A stretch of 37,315 nucleotides of DNA from Candidatus Wallbacteria bacterium. GTDB taxonomy: Bacteria > Muiribacteriota > UBA6191 > JACPRK01. Shown piece by piece: positions 880 through 26,035 of the stretch. Below the pieces are notes generated by a model that did not search any database, had not been told where the DNA came from, and saw nothing but the letters and a program-made list of their open reading frames with translations. Positions within the stretch are counted from its first letter, which is position 1; each line of letters begins with the position of its first letter. The stretch covers positions 1 through 37,315 of the forward strand of contig JACPRK010000091.1 in the NCBI GenBank assembly GCA_016190005.1, read 5' to 3'. The position numbers were made by a program, and so were the translations under genes.

Positions 880-1479
880 ATGACGCTCAATCTGTCCGAG
901 AAACAGTTGAAGGTCCTGGAGCGGTTGCGGCAGTTTGCGCGTGAGCGCGGGTACATGCCGAGCTTGCGGGAGCTGGCGCAGGAGCTGGGGATCACGTATG
1001 CGACGGTCCGGCAGCACCTGGACGCCTTGAAGCGAAAGGGGTTCCTGGCCAGCGACGGGCAGGCGCACGGGTTGTCGTTGTTGCGGGAGAAGCTGGGCTC
1101 CGAAGCGGGTGTGGAAGTGCCGGTGATCGGGACCATTGCAGCGGGCCGGCCGATCGAGGCTCTGGAGGCGGTCGAGAGACCGATCGTGGTCTCGGCGCAG
1201 ATGGCCCGTGGCGAGGCCTACGCCCTGCGGGTGAGGGGCGACTCGATGGTGGACGATCACATCCTGGACGGGGACTACGTGATCGTGGAGCCTGCCTCGA
1301 CGGTCGACGACGGTGCCATCGCCGTGGCCCTGCTGGAAGACGGCACGGCCACGCTCAAGCGCGTTTATCGCGAGAAGGGCCGCATCCGGCTCCAGCCGGC
1401 CAATCCGGCGATGTCTCCCCTCTACGTGAAGAAGCTGCGCATCCAGGGTCGCGTTCGAGGTGTGTTGCGATGCACCTGA
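880..1479 (+). CDS. lexA: LexA SOS transcriptional repressor
   Basis: LexA represses SOS genes and cleaves itself when RecA filaments form on damaged DNA. The 199-residue product has the usual length. Residues 1-65 form the winged-helix DNA-binding domain (MPSLRELAQELGITYATVRQ region). The Ala-Gly cleavage site is A88-G89 (TIAAGRP). The catalytic dyad is S122 (RGDSMVD) and K160 (TATLKRV). ATG 880 is chosen because it gives the family N-terminus; there is no Shine-Dalgarno sequence, which fits the near-leaderless promoter just upstream. An open frame extends to 646 but runs through heptamer and pyrimidine repeats and is not part of LexA. It is followed after 37 nt by imuA, consistent with the known lexA-imuA-imuB-dnaE2 SOS cassettes. 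Confidence 0.97.
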   Translation: MTLNLSEKQLKVLERLRQFARERGYMPSLRELAQELGITYATVRQHLDALKRKGFLASDGQAHGLSLLREKLGSEAGVEVPVIGTIAAGRPIEALEAVERPIVVSAQMARGEAYALRVRGDSMVDDHILDGDYVIVEPASTVDDGAIAVALLEDGTATLKRVYREKGRIRLQPANPAMSPLYVKKLRIQGRVRGVLRCT

Positions 1480-1516
1480 AGCTGCGCACCGCTTTCCTGT
1501 GTCGTCTCCAGCCCCC

Positions 1517-2140
1517 ATGCATTCCGCGCTGCAACATCTCCAGAATGTGCTCGCCGAGCGATTCCCCGAGGCGTCTCGGAGAGTCGCGTCCGCGGGGGTG
1601 TTGCCGACGGGAATGGCGGAGGTCGACGCCCGCTTGCCCGGGGGCGGCTTGCCGAAGGGGTGTCTCGTCGAGCTCGGAGGAGGGCTTTCGTCAGGCAAGG
1701 GGACCGTGATCGACCGGCTGGTGGCGTCGCTGACGCTGGCGGCCGGCTGGGTCGGGTATGTCGATCTGCCGGCGACGCTCTATCCGCCGTCACTGGCCTC
1801 TGCCGGAGCCCGGCTGGATCGGCTGCTGATTGTCCGGCCGAGCGCGCTGCCCCAGGCGCTCTGGGCGTGCGAGCTGCTGGTCCGCTGCCGGGGATTCGAT
1901 CTGGTGGTCTTCGATCTCACGATCGCTCCGTCACCGGTGCTGGCCCCCGCTCCTCTGCACCGGCTGGCCCGGGTCGCCGAGCAAGGACAGGCCGTCGTCC
2001 TCTTCGTGACGCAGTCCAGCCGCGAGCTCGATCGCCGGCCTCTCCCGCCCGGCGTCACCGCGCTGCGTCTGGCCGTGACGCGCTCCCGCTGTGGCCTGGA
2101 TGTGAATGTCGTGAGGAGGAGAGCAGGGAGTAGGGAGTAG
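1517..2140 (+). CDS. imuA: ImuA, RecA-like translesion mutasome protein
   Basis: A RecA/SulA-related protein, 207 residues. In known systems ImuA acts with ImuB and DnaE2 in damage-induced mutagenesis. Residues 54-63 (GGGLSSGKGT) resemble a Walker A loop, and the N-terminal PTGMAEVDARLPGGGLPKG region is the typical RecA-like entry. A later hydrophobic strand ending in Asp (LVVFDL) may be Walker B. I chose ATG 1517; an in-frame GTG at 1460 overlapping lexA is possible. The last codons and the TAG stop lie inside a heptamer array starting at 2121, so the C-terminal AGSRE is encoded by repeat DNA. Placement between lexA and imuB supports the call, since ImuA sequences diverge widely. Confidence 0.86.
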   Translation: MHSALQHLQNVLAERFPEASRRVASAGVLPTGMAEVDARLPGGGLPKGCLVELGGGLSSGKGTVIDRLVASLTLAAGWVGYVDLPATLYPPSLASAGARLDRLLIVRPSALPQALWACELLVRCRGFDLVVFDLTIAPSPVLAPAPLHRLARVAEQGQAVVLFVTQSSRELDRRPLPPGVTALRLAVTRSRCGLDVNVVRRRAGSRE

Positions 2141-2317: not shown

Positions 2318-3889
2318 ATGCTCTGCATCACCATCGAAGACTTCCTGGTCGCGGTCCATGCGCGCGAACGGCCCGAGCTGCGGGGCGTGCCGGTCGCGGT
2401 CGTGGAGCCAGAGGGGCGGCGCGTGGTGCTGCAGGTCAGCAGGGAAGCGGCCAGGCTCGGTGTTCTGGTCGGGATGACGCAGGTCCAGGCGCGTGGCGTC
2501 AGCTCGGAGCTGGTCTGTCTGGATGCCGCCCCCGCCCTTTACGAGCAGGCGATTGACGCACTCATGACGCGCTTGTCGCAGGTGGGGCCGCGACTGGAGC
2601 GGGCCGGACCCGGGCTCGTCTACATGGAGACCCGAGGACTGGGGAAGATCTACGGAAAGATGGAGGTGCTGGTCGAAAGGGTGCTGGAGGTGACGCGCTC
2701 CGAGGGGTATGCGTCAACGCGCGTCGGAGTGGGCAGGACGAAGCTGATCGCCCGGCTGGCGGCGCTCCAGGGAGGCGGTATCGTCGCAGTGGCTGCGGAG
2801 AAGACGTTCCTGGGGGCGCTTCCGGTGAATGTGCTCGAGCCCGATGAGGGTCTTCGAGAGCAGCTCTTCCTGCTGGGAATCCACACGTTGGGGCAGCTCG
2901 CCGGGCTGGAGCCGGGCGCCGTGGAGTCGCGTTACGGCCCGGATGGCGCGCGGCTGCACCGGATGGCGCGCGGGTTCGAGGACGACGTGTTCCGGCCCTG
3001 GATGCCTGTGACCGAGTGGAGCGAGCGAGTCGATTGCGAGCTCCCGGTCTCCGAGGTCGAGCGGCTGGTGTTCCTGCTGGCGGTGCCGCTGGAGAGGCTG
3101 CTCGAGAGGCTCTCCGGGGAGGGGCTGGCGTGCCGGGCGCTGTCGGTAGAGTTGCACGTGGAGGACCGAGGAGTGGACGAGCGGCAGCTGGCGCTGGCGG
3201 TGCCCTCCGGCGCAGCGCCGGCCCAGGCGGCGCGGACGTTCCTGGAGCTCTTGCGCCTGGAAGTGGCGCGCGCCGGCCTGGCGGGCCCCGTGACGCGCGT
3301 CGAGCTCTCCGTGCGGGCGGCGGCGGCGCCACACGCCGGGCAGGGGCGTCTCTTCGGCAGGCCCCCCGTCAGCGCCGCGGCCATCGCCCAGGTGGCGGCC
3401 AAGCTCTCCGCACGGCTGGGCGACGCGGCCGTCTTCAGCCCCGAGCTGGTCGATAGCTGGCGTCCCGAGGAGGCCTACCGGCGAGGTCCGTTGCGGCTGG
3501 AGGTGTCGGAGACAGGAGGCGAGGCGCGGGGCTCGAAGAAGAAAAAACGGGTAGCGAGACGCGAACAGCTGGGCGGCAGCGAGTCGTGCGTCTCCCAGCT
3601 CGACCCCCGATTCTCCCCGCCGGGCCTGCGCGTGCTGCCCGAGCCGAGCGCGGCGCGCGTGACGCTGCGTTCGGGCCGCTGCGCCGGGGAGGAGCCCGGC
3701 GAGCTCGAATGGGCGGGCGCGTCACGGCGGGTCGTCGCCAGCTCGGGTCCCTGGTCCCGCGACGGCGAATGGTGGTCCGGCGGGTTCTCGCGCGACTACT
3801 TCGAGGTCGAGACCGCCGACGGCGCCCGCCTGTGGCTGTACCGGGACCGCGTCACGGGCGGCTGGTTCGTGCATGGCGTCTTCGAGTAA
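2318..3889 (+). CDS. imuB: ImuB, catalytically inactive Y-family polymerase-like protein
   Basis: ImuB is the hub of the ImuA-ImuB-DnaE2 mutasome: it binds the sliding clamp and recruits DnaE2. The 523-residue product has the Y-family fold, with palm and fingers in 1-230, HhH region near 180-215 and little finger to about 335. The acidic catalytic residues are missing: the N-terminal strand reads LCITIED where active enzymes have an Asp, and the usual D-E pair is replaced in VYMETRGLG (101-109). QGRLF (342-346) matches a beta-clamp-binding pentamer. The C-terminal part (470-523; GPWSRDGEWW, DRVTGGWFVHGVFE) is characteristic of ImuB. Residues about 400-435 are a Lys/Arg/Ser-rich linker whose DNA resembles degenerate heptamers. 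The ATG directly follows a pyrimidine array, with no Shine-Dalgarno sequence. dnaE2 starts 12 nt after the stop. Confidence 0.94.
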   Translation: MLCITIEDFLVAVHARERPELRGVPVAVVEPEGRRVVLQVSREAARLGVLVGMTQVQARGVSSELVCLDAAPALYEQAIDALMTRLSQVGPRLERAGPGLVYMETRGLGKIYGKMEVLVERVLEVTRSEGYASTRVGVGRTKLIARLAALQGGGIVAVAAEKTFLGALPVNVLEPDEGLREQLFLLGIHTLGQLAGLEPGAVESRYGPDGARLHRMARGFEDDVFRPWMPVTEWSERVDCELPVSEVERLVFLLAVPLERLLERLSGEGLACRALSVELHVEDRGVDERQLALAVPSGAAPAQAARTFLELLRLEVARAGLAGPVTRVELSVRAAAAPHAGQGRLFGRPPVSAAAIAQVAAKLSARLGDAAVFSPELVDSWRPEEAYRRGPLRLEVSETGGEARGSKKKKRVARREQLGGSESCVSQLDPRFSPPGLRVLPEPSAARVTLRSGRCAGEEPGELEWAGASRRVVASSGPWSRDGEWWSGGFSRDYFEVETADGARLWLYRDRVTGGWFVHGVFE

Positions 3890-3901: not shown

Positions 3902-6900
3902 ATGTACGTCGAGCTCCACAGCCACTCCTACTTCAGCTTCCTGCGCGGGGCGAGCTCCCCGGCGGAGCTGGTCCAGACTGCGGTCGAGCAGGGTCATGAC
4001 GCGCTGGCGCTCACCGATACGGCCGGCCTCTACGGCGCCGTGCAGTTCTATCGCGCCTGCCAGGAGCGCGGCCTGCGCGCGATCCTGGGCGCCGAGATCG
4101 CGCTCGACGAAGCCGACGCCGCACACCTGGTGCTGCTGGCCAGGGACGCCCAGGGCTACGCCAATCTTTCGACTCTCCTCTCCAGGGCCGCGCAGGCGCA
4201 TCCCAAGAACCAGGCGCGCGTCACCTGGGAGATGCTGGACGCACACTCGACGGGTCTTTTCTGTCTGAGCGGCTGCGTCCACGGCGCGCTGGCCGCCGCG
4301 CTGGCGCGCGGAGACGCAGAGCTGGCGGCGCGTCGCGCGTCGAGGCTGGCGGAGATCTTCGGGCGCGAGAGCTTCCACGTCGAGCTCTGGGACCATCGCC
4401 AGAAGAGCGAGGCCGCGCTCGCCGCCGCCCTGGCCGCTCTGGCCGCTCGCCTGGAGCTCCCCGTCGTCGCGACCGGCAATGTCCATTACGCCCGCGCTTC
4501 GGACCGCAAGCTCTGCGATGTTCTCTTCGCCATCCGCCACCACACGACGGTGGACGCCGCAGGCCGGCGGTTGCTTCCCAACGACGGCTTCGCGCTCGTG
4601 CCGCCCGGCGAGATGGAGCGCCGCTTCGCCCACCTGCCGAAGGCGATCGCCGCCACGCGCGCCATTGCCGACGCCTGCACGTTCGATCTGGCCAGCCTCT
4701 GCTTCCGGTTCCCGCCCTGCGAGCTGCCCGCCGGCCAGACCGCCGCCGGTTTCCTGCGCCAGCTGGCCGCCAAGGGCGCCGCCCGCCGCTACGCCTCGGC
4801 CGCTCCCGAGCTGCGGGAGCGCGCCATGCGCCAGATCGAGCACGAGCTCGCCATCATCGAGAAGCTCGACCTGGCGGGCTACTTCCTCATCGTCTGGGAC
4901 ATCGTCCGGTTGTGTCGCGAGAAGGAGATCCTCAGCCAGGGTCGGGGCAGCGCTGCCAACTCCGCCGTCTGCTACAGCCTGGGCATCACGGCGGTCGACC
5001 CCGTGCGGCTCGAGCTGCTCTTCGAGAGGTTCCTCTCGGAGGACCGCAGGGAGGCCCCTGACATCGACCTCGACATCGAGCACGAGAGGCGCGAGGAGGT
5101 GCTGCAGTACGTCTACGAACGCTACGGTCGCAACCACGCCGGAATGGTGGCCGAGGTCATCAGTTACCGCGGCCGCTCGGCCGTGCGCGACGTGGGAAAG
5201 GCCCTGGGCTTCTCGCCTGAGCAGCTCGAGGATGAGAATCGAGAATCGAGAATCGAGAATCGAGAAGACACCAGTGAGGCTCGGGGCTCGAACGGGGAGG
5301 GGGTAGCGGCGAGAGGAGAGAATCGAGGCTCGAGGAGCGAGAAGCGAAAGCCAGGGGATCAGAAGCGAGTTGCCTCTGACGAGAAGCTGTCCGGCGGCGC
5401 AGATTCTCGATTCTTCTCCCTCGATTCTCGATCCTCGAGAGTCCGCGAGCTCCGCGAGCTGTCGGAGCGCATCCAGGGATTTCCGCGCCACCTGGGCATT
5501 CACGTGGGCGGGATGATCATCACGGAAGCGCCGCTCTGCGAGATCGTGCCGATCGAGAACGCCACGATGCCGGGGCGGACCGTGATCCAGTGGGACAAGG
5601 ACGACGTCGCCGATTGCGGCCTGGTGAAGATCGACCTGCTGGGGCTCGGCATGCTGTCCCTCATCTCGCGGGCGATCCGGCTGCTGAAGGTGCATCACGG
5701 CGTGACGCTCGATCCGGCCCTGCTGACGTACGACGACCCGGCGGTCTACGACCTGCTCTGCGCGGCCGACACGGTCGGTGTCTTCCAGGTCGAATCGCGC
5801 GCGCAGATGGTGACGCTTCCACGGATGAAGCCGCGCTGCTTCTACGATCTCGTGGTCGAAGTGGCGCTCATCCGGCCGGGGCCGATCCAGGGCGACATGG
5901 TGCATCCCTACCTGCGGCGGCGCGCCGGCGAGGAGCCGGTCACCTACCCGCACGAGTGTCTGAGGCCGGCGCTGGAGCGCACGCTCGGCGTCCCGCTCTT
6001 CCAGGAGCAGGGCATGCGCGTGGCGATCGCCGCCGCCGGCTTCAGCGCCGCCGAGGCCGATGAGCTGAGGCGGGCGATGGGACACAAGCGCTCGCGCGAG
6101 CGGATGGCTGCGCTGGCCGGAAAGCTGATCGGCGGGATGGCGGCCAACGGGATCGCACTGGAGACCGCTCGCCGCATCTACAAGCAGCTCGAGGCGTTCT
6201 CGGACTACGGCTTTCCCGAGAGCCACGCGGCCTCGTTCGCCCTGCTGGTCTACGTGTCGGCGCACCTGAAGAAGTACTGGCCCGCCGAGTTTGCCTGCGC
6301 CATCCTCAACGCGCAGCCGATGGGCTTCTACTCGCCCGCGACGTTGCTGGAAGACGCCCGGCGCCATGGAGTGGTCGTGCGGCCCGTCGACTTGGCGCGC
6401 AGCTCCTGGGAGTGCACGCTGGAGCCCGCCGGTGCCGGGCAGACGGGCGCTTGCCACGCCGTGCGGCTGGGGCTGGCGCAGGTGAAGGGGCTGGGCGATG
6501 CAATGCGGCAACGCGTCGAGGCCGAGCTGGCGAAGGGTCGCTTCCGCGGCCTGGAGGATGTCGTGGAGCGGGCCGGATTCTCTGCGGCTGTCCTGCAGCG
6601 GCTGGCGTCGATCGGCGCGTTCCGTGGCTTCGGCCTCGAGAGGCGGGAGGCGCTCTGGCGGTTGCAGGAGGTGCTGGCACGGCCGGGCGGATTGCTGCGC
6701 GGGGCCATGCGCCCCGACGGCCGCTTCCCGCTGCCCGAGATGAACGCCTCCGAGGCGATGGTCGCCGATTACCGGGCGACGGGCGTGACCACCGGCCCGC
6801 ATCCGATGTGCTTCCTGCGGGCCGGCCTCGCGCGTCAGCGCGTGCTGACCGCGGCGCGCCTGGCCACGATCTCCGGCGGCCGCCGTGTCCGCGTGGCCGG

Positions 6901-7162
6901 CGTCGTGACGGCCCGGCAGCGTCCTCCGACCGCCAAGGGATTCCTCTTCATCACGCTCGAAGACGAGACGGGTTTTGCCAACATCGTCGCCAAGCCCTGG
7001 CTGGTCGAAAGGGAGGGGAGCGTGCTCTGCCGCGAGGCGCTGCTGGTTGTCGACGGCGTCCTCGAGGAGGAGCAGGGGGTCCGCAACATCATCGCCCGGC
7101 ACGCCGAGCCGCTCGAGTTCCCCCATCCCTCGGTGCGCTTCCAGTCGCGAGATTTTCGGTGA
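3902..7162 (+). CDS. dnaE2: DnaE2, error-prone DNA polymerase III alpha subunit
   Basis: DnaE2 carries out SOS-induced translesion synthesis with ImuA and ImuB. The 1086-residue product has an N-terminal PHP domain (LHSHSYFSFL, H6 and H8; the usual TDH is TDT, T40), then the C-family polymerase core. The catalytic aspartates are D387/D389 in PDIDLD and D578 in VKIDLLGLG. Fingers, HhH and a C-terminal OB-fold (near 930-1070; FITLEDETGFANIVAKPW) follow. Length fits DnaE2 rather than the longer replicative DnaE1. Residues about 444-513 differ from the family: a Glu/Arg/Ser-rich insert encoded by heptamer repeats (ENRESRI), between the conserved DVGKALGFSPEQLE and GFPRHLGIHVGG blocks. The insert is in frame and both flanks look intact, so the protein is probably functional. 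ATG 3902 gives the standard PHP start. Confidence 0.97.
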   Translation: MYVELHSHSYFSFLRGASSPAELVQTAVEQGHDALALTDTAGLYGAVQFYRACQERGLRAILGAEIALDEADAAHLVLLARDAQGYANLSTLLSRAAQAHPKNQARVTWEMLDAHSTGLFCLSGCVHGALAAALARGDAELAARRASRLAEIFGRESFHVELWDHRQKSEAALAAALAALAARLELPVVATGNVHYARASDRKLCDVLFAIRHHTTVDAAGRRLLPNDGFALVPPGEMERRFAHLPKAIAATRAIADACTFDLASLCFRFPPCELPAGQTAAGFLRQLAAKGAARRYASAAPELRERAMRQIEHELAIIEKLDLAGYFLIVWDIVRLCREKEILSQGRGSAANSAVCYSLGITAVDPVRLELLFERFLSEDRREAPDIDLDIEHERREEVLQYVYERYGRNHAGMVAEVISYRGRSAVRDVGKALGFSPEQLEDENRESRIENREDTSEARGSNGEGVAARGENRGSRSEKRKPGDQKRVASDEKLSGGADSRFFSLDSRSSRVRELRELSERIQGFPRHLGIHVGGMIITEAPLCEIVPIENATMPGRTVIQWDKDDVADCGLVKIDLLGLGMLSLISRAIRLLKVHHGVTLDPALLTYDDPAVYDLLCAADTVGVFQVESRAQMVTLPRMKPRCFYDLVVEVALIRPGPIQGDMVHPYLRRRAGEEPVTYPHECLRPALERTLGVPLFQEQGMRVAIAAAGFSAAEADELRRAMGHKRSRERMAALAGKLIGGMAANGIALETARRIYKQLEAFSDYGFPESHAASFALLVYVSAHLKKYWPAEFACAILNAQPMGFYSPATLLEDARRHGVVVRPVDLARSSWECTLEPAGAGQTGACHAVRLGLAQVKGLGDAMRQRVEAELAKGRFRGLEDVVERAGFSAAVLQRLASIGAFRGFGLERREALWRLQEVLARPGGLLRGAMRPDGRFPLPEMNASEAMVADYRATGVTTGPHPMCFLRAGLARQRVLTAARLATISGGRRVRVAGVVTARQRPPTAKGFLFITLEDETGFANIVAKPWLVEREGSVLCREALLVVDGVLEEEQGVRNIIARHAEPLEFPHPSVRFQSRDFR
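5234..5436 (+). repeat. Heptamer inverted-repeat element inside dnaE2
   Basis: Left arm 5234-5268: four GAGAATC units and a degenerate fifth. Right arm 5402-5436: GATTCTC, GATTCTT, CTCCCTC, GATTCTC, GATCCTC, the reverse complement family. The 133-nt spacer contains further degenerate heptamers. The whole element is translated in frame. Confidence 0.92.
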
Positions 7163-7340: not shown

Positions 7341-7745
7341 TTGAAGAAAAACATCCTGGTCATCGACGACGAAAAGATGTTCTGCCTGCTTCTCAAGAAG
7401 TTCTTGGAGAAGCACGGCTACAGCGTGAAAGCCGTTTTTTCCGGCACCGACGTGGTCGACCAGCTCTGGGAGCGCAAGTACTCCCTGGTCATTAGCGACA
7501 TCTGCATGAGCGAGCTGAACGGCATCGAGGTGCTCCAGAAGATTCGCATCGCCTACCCGAGCACGCCGGTCATCATGATGAGCGGCAACGCCAGCCCGAA
7601 TGCCTTGGAGCAGATCCGCCAGTTCCAGGCGCAGAAGTTCATCCAGAAGCCCTTCGAGCTCAAGGCCCTGCTGTCCGAGGTGGAGACGATCATCGGCCCC
7701 CCCGGCGAGGAAGGCGGCGAGCCCGCTGCTCCGGCGCAGGCGTGA
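7341..7745 (+). CDS. Single-domain response regulator
   Basis: A stand-alone CheY-like receiver of 134 residues. The acidic pair D9/D10, phospho-acceptor D53 (LVISDICMSELNG), switch Ser S81 (MMSGN) and K103 (IQKPF) are all present. A short Pro/Glu-rich tail follows (about 122-134) and there is no output domain, so it would act by protein contact or within a phosphorelay. The start is TTG at 7341, preceded by GGGGA at a normal distance; no in-frame ATG precedes the receiver fold. Its partner kinase is not evident; three kinases lie within 13 kb. The stop is followed after 4 nt by a heptamer array. Confidence 0.93.
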   Translation: MKKNILVIDDEKMFCLLLKKFLEKHGYSVKAVFSGTDVVDQLWERKYSLVISDICMSELNGIEVLQKIRIAYPSTPVIMMSGNASPNALEQIRQFQAQKFIQKPFELKALLSEVETIIGPPGEEGGEPAAPAQA

Positions 7746-7749
7746 GGGA

Positions 7750-7940
7750 AGTAGTGAGTAGTGAGCAGGGGGCTCTACTACTCGGCTCCTGAGCGGTGAT
7801 CCCTCGAAGACACTGTTCGGTGCGAGCGCTTCCAGGGTCAGAGCTGATAAGCCCTTGCCTCTCGGTAGGGTCGACGCGAACAGCCGATGCAGTGCCTCGA
7901 GAGAGTGCGCCCCCCGTCCCCCTACTCGCTACTCACTACT
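7750..7940. repeat. Heptamer inverted repeat between convergent genes
   Basis: Left arm 7750-7772 (GAGTAGT-type units plus GGGGG) and right arm 7918-7940 (CCCCC plus CTACTCG/CTACTCA units) are 23 nt each and complementary with two mismatches. The 145-nt spacer holds no gene. The arms sit 4 nt after the receiver-gene stop and 3 nt after the minus-strand stop of the Yip1-like gene. It could act as a bidirectional terminator or 3' stabiliser. Confidence 0.9.
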
Positions 7941-21486: not shown

Positions 21487-21593
21487 GTACGGGTCTGTCT
21501 CCTACAACCTCTCCACCAGAGTCTCGGCATCCTAGCACGCCGCCTGGGGTCACGCAAGGCGCCGAGCCGAGGGCGTCCTCGAGCTGCCCCGCC

Positions 21594-22661: not shown

Positions 22662-24235
22662 GTAGGAGCTCGAGGCTTCGCGTGGCGTTCGAGCTCGCCG
22701 GCGTTCTCATACTCTTCCCCGGGCTGGCTTGGGCGCAGGCTGTCTCGGCGGCCACCTCGAGCGCGGCGGCCGGCGGCAGCGGCTTGGAGCAGGCCCTGGT
22801 CGCCTGGCTCCGCGAGGGAGGGCAGGCGCAGCTCTACGCGGTCTACGGCACCGTGACGGCCTTCCTCGTGCTCGCGATGATGTTCTGGCGCAAGGCCTCG
22901 CAGCTCTCGGCGCTGGAGGCGAGGATGCGCGACGACATGACGCAGATGCGCTCCAGCATGGAGGCGCAGACCGCCGAGATTGCCTCCAAGGCCCAGGCCA
23001 CCACGGACAAGGCCCGCGCCAAGGCCGTCCAGCTCTCGACTCTCTTCCTCAAGCTCAAGAACCTCGTCAGCTGCACCGACAAGGAGACGCTGATGAAGGA
23101 GCTGATGGCAATCCTGTCGAAGGGCTTCGGCGCCACGCGCTGCGCCTTCTTCATGTATGACAAGGCCAAGAACGAGCTCTTCATCCTGAAGGCCAGCGGC
23201 TTGACGCCTACCCAGATCACCCAGACCACCGTGGTGCCCGGCGACCAATCCATGATCGGGTGGGCCGCCAAGGAGCTCAAGCTCTGCACGCTCGACATGC
23301 TCACGCGCGACAACACGCTCAAGGGCATGAAAAAGGGCAGGCCGATCGAGACCGTCATCTGCGCCCCCGTCATCGTCAAGGAACAGCTCGTGGGCATCAT
23401 CCACATCGGCGAGCTTCGCGAGACCGAGTGGACCGAGGTCGAGACGCAGCTCTTCTGGACGGCCTGCCTTCTGACCGGCATCGCGCTCGACAAGGCCGAC
23501 CTGATCGAGGCAACGCGCGAAGAGCTGGTGAGCGAGAAGCAGCTCTCGAGCAAGAGCCTGGAGGAGCGCAAGAAGATGCGCGGATTGCTCGACAAGGTGG
23601 TCAGCCCCAAGGTCGCCACGCAGCTGCTCTCGCAGCCCGAGAACCTCCATTTCGAGGGCGAAACGCGCGAGATGACGGTCTTCTTCAGCGACATCAAGGG
23701 CTTCACGACGTACTCCGAGAACCGCGATCCGAAGGATGTCGTCCACATCCTCAACGAGTACCTGACGGCCATGACGGACGTCGTGTTCCAGTTCGGAGGG
23801 ACGCTCGACAAGTTCGTGGGCGACGCCATCGTGGCGCACTGGGGGGCGCTGCCGCCCGACCCCGATCATGCCAAGCTGGCCGTGCGAGCCGCTTACACGA
23901 TGCGCGGCGTGCTGGCCAAGCTGCACGAGAAGTGGAAGGCCGAGGGCAAGGAACCGCTCCTGATGGGGATGGGGCTGCACACCGGGCCGATGGTCTTCGG
24001 CGGCATCGGTTCGCCTCAGAAGATGGACTTCACCGTGATCGGCGACAACGTCAACCTCTGCAGCCGAATCGAGGGGCTGACCCGCCGATTCAACGACGAC
24101 CTCATCATCAGCGAGGACACCTACATCCGCTGCAAGGACATCACGAAGGTCAAGCCGCTCGGCAGCCTCCCCGTCAAGGGCAAGGCCAAGCCCGTGACCG
24201 TGTATGAGGTCATCGAAGTCGATATGTCGTTTTAG
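22658..24235 (+). CDS. Membrane-anchored GAF-class III adenylate cyclase
   Basis: 525 residues. A signal-peptide-like segment (1-27) and a membrane helix (about 60-77) are followed by a coiled coil (82-130), a GAF domain (about 130-285) and a class III cyclase domain (335-520). Metal-binding D345 (FFSDIKGF) and D389 (KFVGDAI), adenine-recognising K385 and D457 (MDFTVIGD), and transition-state N466 and R470 (VNLCSR) are present, so it should be active and make cAMP. GTG 22658 is chosen because it overlaps the HEAT stop as GTGA; GTG 22646 is also in frame. The TAG stop overlaps the first base pair of a heptamer array. Effector genes for cAMP were not seen in the window. Confidence 0.95.
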   Translation: MSRSSRLRVAFELAGVLILFPGLAWAQAVSAATSSAAAGGSGLEQALVAWLREGGQAQLYAVYGTVTAFLVLAMMFWRKASQLSALEARMRDDMTQMRSSMEAQTAEIASKAQATTDKARAKAVQLSTLFLKLKNLVSCTDKETLMKELMAILSKGFGATRCAFFMYDKAKNELFILKASGLTPTQITQTTVVPGDQSMIGWAAKELKLCTLDMLTRDNTLKGMKKGRPIETVICAPVIVKEQLVGIIHIGELRETEWTEVETQLFWTACLLTGIALDKADLIEATREELVSEKQLSSKSLEERKKMRGLLDKVVSPKVATQLLSQPENLHFEGETREMTVFFSDIKGFTTYSENRDPKDVVHILNEYLTAMTDVVFQFGGTLDKFVGDAIVAHWGALPPDPDHAKLAVRAAYTMRGVLAKLHEKWKAEGKEPLLMGMGLHTGPMVFGGIGSPQKMDFTVIGDNVNLCSRIEGLTRRFNDDLIISEDTYIRCKDITKVKPLGSLPVKGKAKPVTVYEVIEVDMSF

Positions 24236-24439
24236 TAGTGAGTAGCGAGTAGTGAGTAGCGAGTAGACGAGGGCTACCGTTGCGTGAGGGGGGCACTCAG
24301 TGCAGCCAGCGCTTGCTCGACTGGCGGGTCTGGATTCCGGTTTTCCTCGTTTTCCGACAAGCCATTTGCTACTGGCGAGGGGCGCTTTTCCTACTCACTA
24401 CTCACTACTCGCTACTCGCTACTCGCTACTCGCTACTCT
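24234..24439. repeat. Heptamer inverted repeat between convergent genes
   Basis: Left arm 24234-24268: five AGTAGTG/AGTAGCG/AGTAGAC units starting inside the cyclase stop codon. Right arm 24391-24439: seven CTACTCA/CTACTCG/CTACTCT units ending exactly at the HEAT-gene stop (minus-strand TAG at 24442-24440). The 122-nt spacer has no gene. The layout repeats that at 7750-7940. Confidence 0.93.
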
Positions 24440-26035
24440 CTATCCCCCGAGTTTCTTCTTGAAGGCGCCGAAGGCGTCGGCGATGCGTGATTTCAGGGTT
24501 TCGAGCTTGCCGGCGCCGGGCTCCTCCTTGCCGGCGGCAGCGGGTCCGGCGCCGGCCTGGGCGGCGGCCTCGGCGAGCCGCGCATCCAAGAGCTCGCGCG
24601 CCTGGCGGGCCTTCTCCTTGACGTCGGCATCGAGGTCGTCGTCGAACATCTTGAGGAGCTCGGCTGCGGCCGGCGTCGCGATCTCGACGATGGCGTAGAT
24701 GCAGCTCTTGCGGAACGTGGCGTCGCCGGTGGCCATGCCTTTCAGGGCCTTGACGACATCGGCCCGTCGGTAATCCTTGAGCGCCACGATGGCGTTTGCG
24801 CGACAGCGGTTGTCGGTGTCATGGAGCAGCCCGAGGAGAGCCTCGGGGCGCACCTTGCCGCGCAACGCCTCGACGGCATTGGCGCGGATGCGGCCGTCGG
24901 AATCCGACAGGCACTGCTTGAGCATTTCGGTGGCGAGCTTGCCGCCCAGCTTGCCGGCGGCCATCACCAGGCTGGCACGGAGCTTCGGCTCCGTCTCGCG
25001 CTGAAACCATTCGATGATCTCAGGCACGCGCGCCGTGTCGGTCTCGCGGACCCAGGACATCAACTCGTCGGTGCGGCCGGCGTCGGCGGCGGGGCGGATG
25101 GCCGACGAAGAGGGCGGAGGCGCTCCGGGAAGCTCGAGTTTCTGGGGCGGCGCGGGAGCTGGTGAGGCCGAGGGCCGTGCGGGCGAGGACGGCGGCGCGC
25201 CGGGTGGGCGGGCGACCGGGGCTCGCGGCGGCGGGGCGGCTGCGGGCGGCTTCTCGCCCAGCGACTCGAGCGCGGCGGTGGCGGCCTGTCGCACCTGCGC
25301 GTCCTCGTCAGAGGCGAGCCGCTCGGCGATGGGGCGCAGATGCGGCTGGCGGACGCGGCCGCAGGCCAGCACGGCGGCGAGCCTCTTCCAGGATTTGGTC
25401 GACGCGGCCATGTGCTCGAGCAGCCTGCCGAAATTGGACTTGCCGATCCGCGAGCAGATGCGGAACGCGCTCTTCTGAACGTCGGCGGAAGGGTCGGAGA
25501 GCCCTCGGACGGCGTACGGGAACATGTCTACGTCGTCGATGATGCCCAGGGCCGTGACGGCGGCCCAGCGGACCTCGGCCTCGGGGTCGGCCACGAAGGG
25601 CGCCAGGACGCGGATGGCGTGGCGACCGGCCAGTGCAGTCAGGAGCAGGGCTGCGCGCTTGACGGCCGGGTCGCTCTCACTCTCCAGCAGGGGCGGCAGA
25701 AGCGGGATGGCGGCCAGCTGGCGGGTCGCCAGGCAAAGGTCCAGGCTCTTCTTGCGAACGGCCACGTCAGGCGAGGCCAGCAGCGCCTGGAGCTCGGAAG
25801 GGTCGGCCGAGAGCTGGAGCTGGGGCGGGCGCCTCTGGATCGTCTCCTGAAGCTGGTGGACGGTCTTCTTGGCGGCGAAGCGCAGCTGGATGCTGGGGTC
25901 GGCCGACGAGATTCGTTCCAGCGCCAGGAAGGCGACCGGGTCCTCGATCTTGCCCAGCCCCGCCACTGCCCGGGCCCGGACTTCTTCCCTGAGGTCCTCG
26001 AGCTCCGTCAAACACTTGTCCAGTTCCGGATGCAC
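24440..26035 (-). CDS. HEAT-repeat protein with Pro-rich linker
   Basis: 531 residues in two HEAT blocks (about 1-255 and 325-480) joined by a Pro/Ala-rich linker (about 260-315). No signal peptide or membrane segment. Repeats such as SDSDGRIRANAVEALRG and DTDNRCRANAIVALKDY show it is a paralogue of the other two HEAT proteins here. The tail is Ala/Lys-rich. The start is a GTG at 26035 without a Shine-Dalgarno sequence. A possible -10 (TAAACC, 26050-26045) lies 9 nt upstream in a GTGGTAAA context, so this mRNA may also be nearly leaderless. A pyrimidine heptamer array lies just beyond. Function unknown beyond protein scaffolding. Confidence 0.9.
   Translation of the reverse strand: MHPELDKCLTELEDLREEVRARAVAGLGKIEDPVAFLALERISSADPSIQLRFAAKKTVHQLQETIQRRPPQLQLSADPSELQALLASPDVAVRKKSLDLCLATRQLAAIPLLPPLLESESDPAVKRAALLLTALAGRHAIRVLAPFVADPEAEVRWAAVTALGIIDDVDMFPYAVRGLSDPSADVQKSAFRICSRIGKSNFGRLLEHMAASTKSWKRLAAVLACGRVRQPHLRPIAERLASDEDAQVRQAATAALESLGEKPPAAAPPPRAPVARPPGAPPSSPARPSASPAPAPPQKLELPGAPPPSSSAIRPAADAGRTDELMSWVRETDTARVPEIIEWFQRETEPKLRASLVMAAGKLGGKLATEMLKQCLSDSDGRIRANAVEALRGKVRPEALLGLLHDTDNRCRANAIVALKDYRRADVVKALKGMATGDATFRKSCIYAIVEIATPAAAELLKMFDDDLDADVKEKARQARELLDARLAEAAAQAGAGPAAAGKEEPGAGKLETLKSRIADAFGAFKKKLGG

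Follow-up and report, generated by a model that had tools for sequence, protein, structure and literature searches.

In-frame convergent heptamer arrays in the dnaE2 gene of a groundwater bacterium: probably a fixed element rather than a phase-variable switch

The gene for the error-prone DNA polymerase DnaE2 of a groundwater bacterium contains an insert built from two inverted arrays of a heptanucleotide, and the protein is translated straight through it. On the basis of its layout, its position in the protein and its state in a sibling genome, we judge that this insert is very probably a fixed, slowly decaying convergent heptamer element that is tolerated in a surface thumb loop of an active DnaE2. 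A first-pass annotation of the same DNA had noticed the heptamer inverted repeat inside the translated polymerase, and had interpreted it both as an example of gene invasion by a stop-free heptamer and as the basis of a phase-variable mutator gene. The first part of this interpretation agrees with the evidence given below, whereas the second is not supported by it.

The heptamer insert and its host protein

The DNA under study (hereafter the window) is a stretch of 37,315 nucleotides that constitutes contig C66 of the draft genome G000 (4.48 Mb in 212 contigs). The features of the operon and of the insert are as follows.

1460–2140, plus strand: imuA-like gene (NF033429, E 2.5e-24, under its curated cut-off)
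2318–3889, plus strand: imuB-like Y-family gene of the dnaE2 operon (PF00817)
3902–7162, plus strand: dnaE2/imuC, error-prone DNA polymerase of 1086 amino acids (NF004225, 1307 bits versus a cut-off of 939)
5234–5266, plus strand: left, purine-type GAGAATC array of 4.7 units, translated ENRESRIENRE; same length in the sibling genome G001, with one substitution
5267–5401, plus strand: centre of the insert, present only once in the genome, with degenerate 7-nt periodicity (lag-7 identity 0.45)
5402–5438, minus strand: right, pyrimidine-type GATTCTC array, imperfect and convergent to the left array, with which it forms inverted-repeat arms

The operon has the order lexA-imuA-imuB-dnaE2, in which lexA, the first gene, was assigned by inspection and the other genes were assigned by family profiles. 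We place the polymerase in the DnaE2/ImuC group because of its profile score, its three catalytic aspartates and the imuA-imuB-dnaE2 gene order, the imuA match being below its curated cut-off. The aspartates (D387, D389 and, as the third, D578) are invariant columns in an alignment of 10 DnaE2 sequences, and the PF07733 match extends over residues 284–581 and spans the insert.

In the insert at window positions 5234–5438, a middle of 135 nt separates a GAGAATC array from a GATTCTC array. The frame of the insert is open throughout (translation ENRESRIENRE...DSRFFSLDSRSS), its arms (5234–5266 and 5404–5436, 33 nt each) are 82% complementary, and an extra GAGAATC unit is located inside it at 5318–5331. 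The arms, the unit counts and the open frame bear out the repeat as it was originally observed, and the accompanying statement that GAGAATC and GATTCTC lack stop codons in all frames is correct by arithmetic. The middle gave no match elsewhere in genome G000. Its lag-7 identity of 0.45 compares with 0.30 for shuffled sequence (0 of 5000 shuffles were as high) and with at most 0.38 for neighbouring coding windows. Given that the middle is also 7-periodic, the entire insert of approximately 204 nt appears to be repeat-derived. It corresponds to 68 codons that look repeat-derived (DnaE2 residues 445–512, in the thumb), and has a GC content at third codon positions of 0.60, versus 0.90 in the remainder of dnaE2.

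A weaker 7-periodic patch is present in imuB at 3506–3640, with a lag-7 peak of 0.46 at 3506–3592. This patch and the dnaE2 insert both contain GGGGCTCGAA and GGGTAGCG motifs. The patch, which ends in CCCCCGATTCTCCCC, may be an earlier element, in the gene next to dnaE2, that has decayed further.

In the protein, the insert is part of a loop between the ALG and FPRHLGIH motifs. This loop comprises 90 residues in the DnaE2 proteins of G000 and G001, and 43–53 residues in DnaE2 proteins of the same class, phylum and domain, when the G023 and G051 proteins, which are without the catalytic aspartates, are left out of the comparison. The net gain of 37–47 residues is smaller than the 68 repeat-derived codons, and therefore part of the old loop has either been replaced or is no longer recognizable. 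When DnaE2 is aligned to Pol III alpha chains of known structure, the alignment is interrupted precisely at the insert and resumes at E. coli residue 488, in a region that we take to be the thumb from the established domain assignment. In an AlphaFold model made from the 10-sequence alignment, residues 449–510 are unstructured (pLDDT ~30) and lie between two helices, while the model outside these residues, including the flanks of the insert, is folded (mean 76). The model thus predicts that the inserted stretch is disordered. No empty site was seen: no high-identity relative has a dnaE2 gene without the insert, the next relatives being about 40% identical, and no dnaE2 was seen in G002, a genome of the same genus.

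The nearest relative, G001 (Candidatus Wallbacteria), also encodes a DnaE2 of 1086 amino acids, which is 98% identical. Relative to G000, its insert has zero indels and nine substitutions, of which five are synonymous and four non-synonymous. The resulting dN/dS ratio is about 0.13 over the gene and about 0.27 within the insert, the latter from small counts. Retention of the insert in two species with few non-synonymous changes would be expected if a longer loop had been selected for a function, such as adjusting how DnaE2 contacts ImuB or the clamp, its repeat origin being incidental. The heptad-like patch in imuB, in the same operon, could be viewed in the same light. However, the stretch is predicted to be disordered, it shows no conservation beyond the sibling, and the counts are too small to separate weak constraint from neutrality. 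We consider selection for such a function unlikely.

Heptamer elements across the genome

The dnaE2 insert belongs to a large set of similar structures, which occupy the intergenic gaps of this genome. With up to two mismatches, the doubled GAGAATC unit occurs 12 times in the window, versus 0.35 expected. The exact doubled unit occurs 100 times in G000 (the reversed-letter control yields 0) and 85 times in G001, but 0 times in G002 and no more than twice in any other of 57 genomes. Among the array pairs within 320 bp of each other in the examined stretches of G000, 29 are convergent, 1 is divergent, 2 are tandem and 3 are unclear. The arms of these pairs often come from different, non-complementary heptamer families, and yet they are almost always convergent. 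Of the GAGAATC arrays paired between G000 and G001, that in dnaE2 alone is clearly coding; none of the others has third-codon-position bias on both sides.

These observations bear on whether the insert is an ordinary mobile element, namely a MITE or palindromic element with heptamer terminal inverted repeats that was moved by a transposase. Such an element would explain the inverted arms and the many dispersed copies, and the palindromic elements of Rickettsia offer a precedent for in-frame insertion (PMC10969869). However, the spacers of 31 G000 elements have no core in common, and this finding, together with the differing arms, argues against a MITE and also against simple copying of a hairpin. 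In addition, arm lengths vary freely and nothing beyond the arrays recurs in the genome. A mobile element of this kind is in our judgement improbable, and an element with a shared core is ruled out by spacers that are unique to each copy. Some spacers (L251 2552–2778, L242 and L267) hold another repeat, which is TTCGACAAGCTCAGGATGAGCGGG-like, partly palindromic and, in L251, tandem.

Unit number in the sibling genome and coding arrays in other phyla

Heptamer arrays between genes change length frequently in this lineage, mostly in whole units. The alignment of G000 and G001 covers 153,718 bases, with double counting of a few overlapping stretches. In 7-periodic context, 37 of 52 indels have a length divisible by 7, compared with 5 of 64 indels elsewhere. 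Perfect heptad runs other than that in dnaE2 differ in length between the two genomes in 16 of 25 cases when runs of at least 21 nt are considered, usually by multiples of 7, and in 9 of 12 cases for runs of at least 28 nt. Two of the length-changing arrays flank the dnaE2 operon. Convergent elements of the window that differ in length between the genomes are the following.

2121–2317, no strand assigned: element in the imuA/imuB gap, GAGTAGT and GAGAATC ... CTTCCAC, ending at the imuB ATG; 14–28 bp shorter in G001
7744–7940, no strand assigned: GAGTAGT...CTACTCA element 3' of the operon; in G001 its right array is longer by 28 bp (4 units)
24234–24442, no strand assigned: GAGTAGC...CTACTCG element, a control locus; in G001 its right array is shorter by 28 bp

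The CTTCCAC array of the first element (2239–2317) also differs by 14 bp (two units) between overlapping contig ends of G001 (L228 4510–4923 and L061 1–400), which show a few flanking SNPs beside the array. This difference in the imuB leader may be a strain polymorphism or, possibly, an assembly error. Separately, G001 has about 5.2 kb of additional DNA relative to the window at approximately 21561–21574.

Inside dnaE2, the number of units is identical in G001, the only close relative with this gene, and one of the substitutions there interrupts the left array (GAGTATC). Invariance of unit number in relatives, which the first-pass annotation had itself named, together with invariance in deep sequencing, as evidence against a switch, is therefore what is seen in this one relative. 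Among the control runs, 3 of 12 are also unchanged, such that a run of the dnaE2 length would stay unchanged on its own with a chance of about 1 in 4. Thus, the case rests on dnaE2 and the other coding arrays together. Coding arrays that are shared between other species likewise differ by substitutions and not by units, as seen for RecG in two Phycisphaerae and for ThiC in two groups of three Verrucomicrobia.

Such coding arrays were identified by a scan for three GAGAATC units in 84,980 species genomes. By our estimate, a uniform base model predicts about 0.1 match by chance among so many genomes. Among the matches listed, arrays are in frame in family-confirmed PrmC, RecG (two genomes), ThiC (two genomes) and TilS, inside the transpeptidase domain of PBP2 and the M16 domain of YfmF, and in a hybrid histidine kinase and a UvrD-type helicase; again among the matches listed, several phyla are represented. 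The expectation that a stop-free unit can enter genes therefore holds both for dnaE2 and for family-confirmed genes in other phyla.

The ThiC loop of one of these matches was read across the family of its genome, in 30 Verrucomicrobia genomes (Udaeobacter family, L287–L316), and its frame is open in all of them. In 12 of the 30 loops there are heptad runs of 18 nt or more, whose units differ. The loops of L301, L303, L306 and L308 contain clear convergent pairs, for example (TGCGGAA)n...(TTCCGCA)n, and these are 4 of 4 of the clear two-array loops with repeat-rich units. This layout is the same as that of the dnaE2 insert. No divergent pair was found in the 30 loops, and L287 and L289 carry two arrays of the same type, the second of which is weak. 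The right arrays of L301 and L303 have the same length, but each of their four units carries a difference at the same position, which is a concerted change. For Verrucomicrobia and Planctomycetes, our literature search yielded no account of heptamer arrays.

The proposal that dnaE2 is a phase-variable mutator holds that frameshifts due to GAGAATC slippage switch the polymerase off and on, so that some subpopulations have SOS mutagenesis and others lack it. Its premise that a one-unit change removes D578 is sound, since gain or loss of 1, 2 or 4 units leads to products of 453–472 amino acids, while a change of 3 units keeps the frame. Heptamer arrays of the lineage do gain and lose units, and overlapping contig ends of a single MAG disagree by 14 bp in the array that precedes imuB. 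However, unit number in dnaE2 is identical in the sole close relative, where the array is interrupted by substitution, while intergenic arrays vary by whole units. The array is also short (4.7 units), and the insert is located in the middle of the gene and not near its start. Moreover, similar arrays are found in housekeeping proteins such as PrmC, RecG and ThiC, which a cell would have little reason to switch off, and phase variation was judged unlikely for the related GGGAATC heptamers by Rehm et al. (PMC4692102). There is no positive evidence for a switchable mutator in dnaE2, and we regard one as quite improbable; a false lead is thereby removed.

An assembly or binning artefact, which might be suspected from the draft status of these MAGs and from the many contigs that end in heptamer arrays, is barely credible and in the main ruled out, given that the same structure recurs in the separate assembly of G001, where substitutions at the species level are spread over the entire insert, and that the frame is open.

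With these alternatives in mind, we favour a fixed and slowly decaying element in an active polymerase. The insert would represent one copy of the genome-wide class, in which a purine-type array is followed by a short spacer and by a pyrimidine-type array that points back. It probably survived for three reasons: the unit is stop-free, the frame is maintained by the overall length of the insert, and a disordered stretch of about 68 residues is tolerated in the loop. The insert would now be inherited as ordinary coding sequence, with selection for an open frame removing any gains or losses of units other than multiples of three, and with point substitutions accumulating and stabilizing the array. 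Given such frame selection and stabilizing substitutions, DnaE2 is expected to be constitutively full length and active. We infer that the unit number is kept by selection and not by chance, and that the inserted loop is functionally neutral.

Wider meaning and comparison with known repeat systems

The dnaE2 operon offers a natural control, in that arrays that are free to expand and contract between genes keep their unit number inside a core enzyme. Heptamer arrays recurrently donate sequence to protein loops of unrelated bacteria, and the ThiC loop of Verrucomicrobia, in which related species carry different arrays at one site, makes repeat origin and turnover directly testable. A more speculative notion, about which we are rather doubtful, is that a common and still active process writes convergent arrays in several phyla, with a unit that changes by lineage. 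Where units are stop-free, this process would yield in-frame loops of housekeeping proteins, and hence new protein sequence, of which Walliibacteriota DnaE2 and the Verrucomicrobia ThiC loop would be two outcomes. Convergence despite differing arms would then be the signature of writing, for example by addition of repeats to both 3' ends of a break.

Several known systems resemble the insert in part. Simple sequence repeat (SSR) contingency loci of Haemophilus and Neisseria also have a short tandem unit that is not divisible by three in an open frame, and a frameshift-capable array is indeed present in the dnaE2 ORF. In contrast to those loci, dnaE2 has no difference in unit number between relatives (one relative), its array is not near the gene start, and the gene functions in DNA repair and does not specify a surface structure. 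Rickettsia palindromic elements (RPEs; Ogata et al., reviewed in PMC10969869) are palindromic DNAs of about 150 bp that reside in frame in unrelated protein genes and are predicted to be compatible with fold and function. The dnaE2 insert is likewise an in-frame insertion in a protein gene. However, RPEs encode a conserved family peptide, whereas here only the heptamer arms recur, unit families vary from site to site and spacers are unique. As the spacers do not match one another and the middle of the dnaE2 insert is unique, the shared core that is typical of RPEs and MITEs is absent.

Closer parallels are found among other heptamers. For the TAACTGA repeats of Beggiatoaceae and cyanobacteria, the stop codons of the unit have been proposed to decide gene entry (MacGregor 2015, PMC4679880). 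As in the present case, these repeats undergo indels in 7-nt steps between close strains and have a few copies in ORFs (PMC4679880). Their in-ORF copies are mostly located at protein ends or in small hypothetical proteins, whereas GAGAATC is found here between catalytic residues of a polymerase. Heptameric repeats are also known as GGGAATC in Xanthomonas and as GGGGA(C/T)T in Nostoc (Rehm et al. 2015, PMC4692102). The Xanthomonas unit is one base from GAGAATC, and is likewise a 7-nt tandem repeat that is dispersed, mostly intergenic and rare in genes, with 70–75 convergent pairs per genome (PMC4692102). Both the dispersed 7-nt tandem units and the convergent pairing are seen in our genome, and the convergent layout is common to the dnaE2 insert. 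Unlike the Xanthomonas and Nostoc repeats, GAGAATC does not contain three consecutive G residues and thus lacks quadruplex G-tracts, and the arms here are often made of different heptamers. Furthermore, the dnaE2 insert preserves the frame of a core enzyme and lies in its middle, an arrangement that other lineages repeat in one loop of ThiC.
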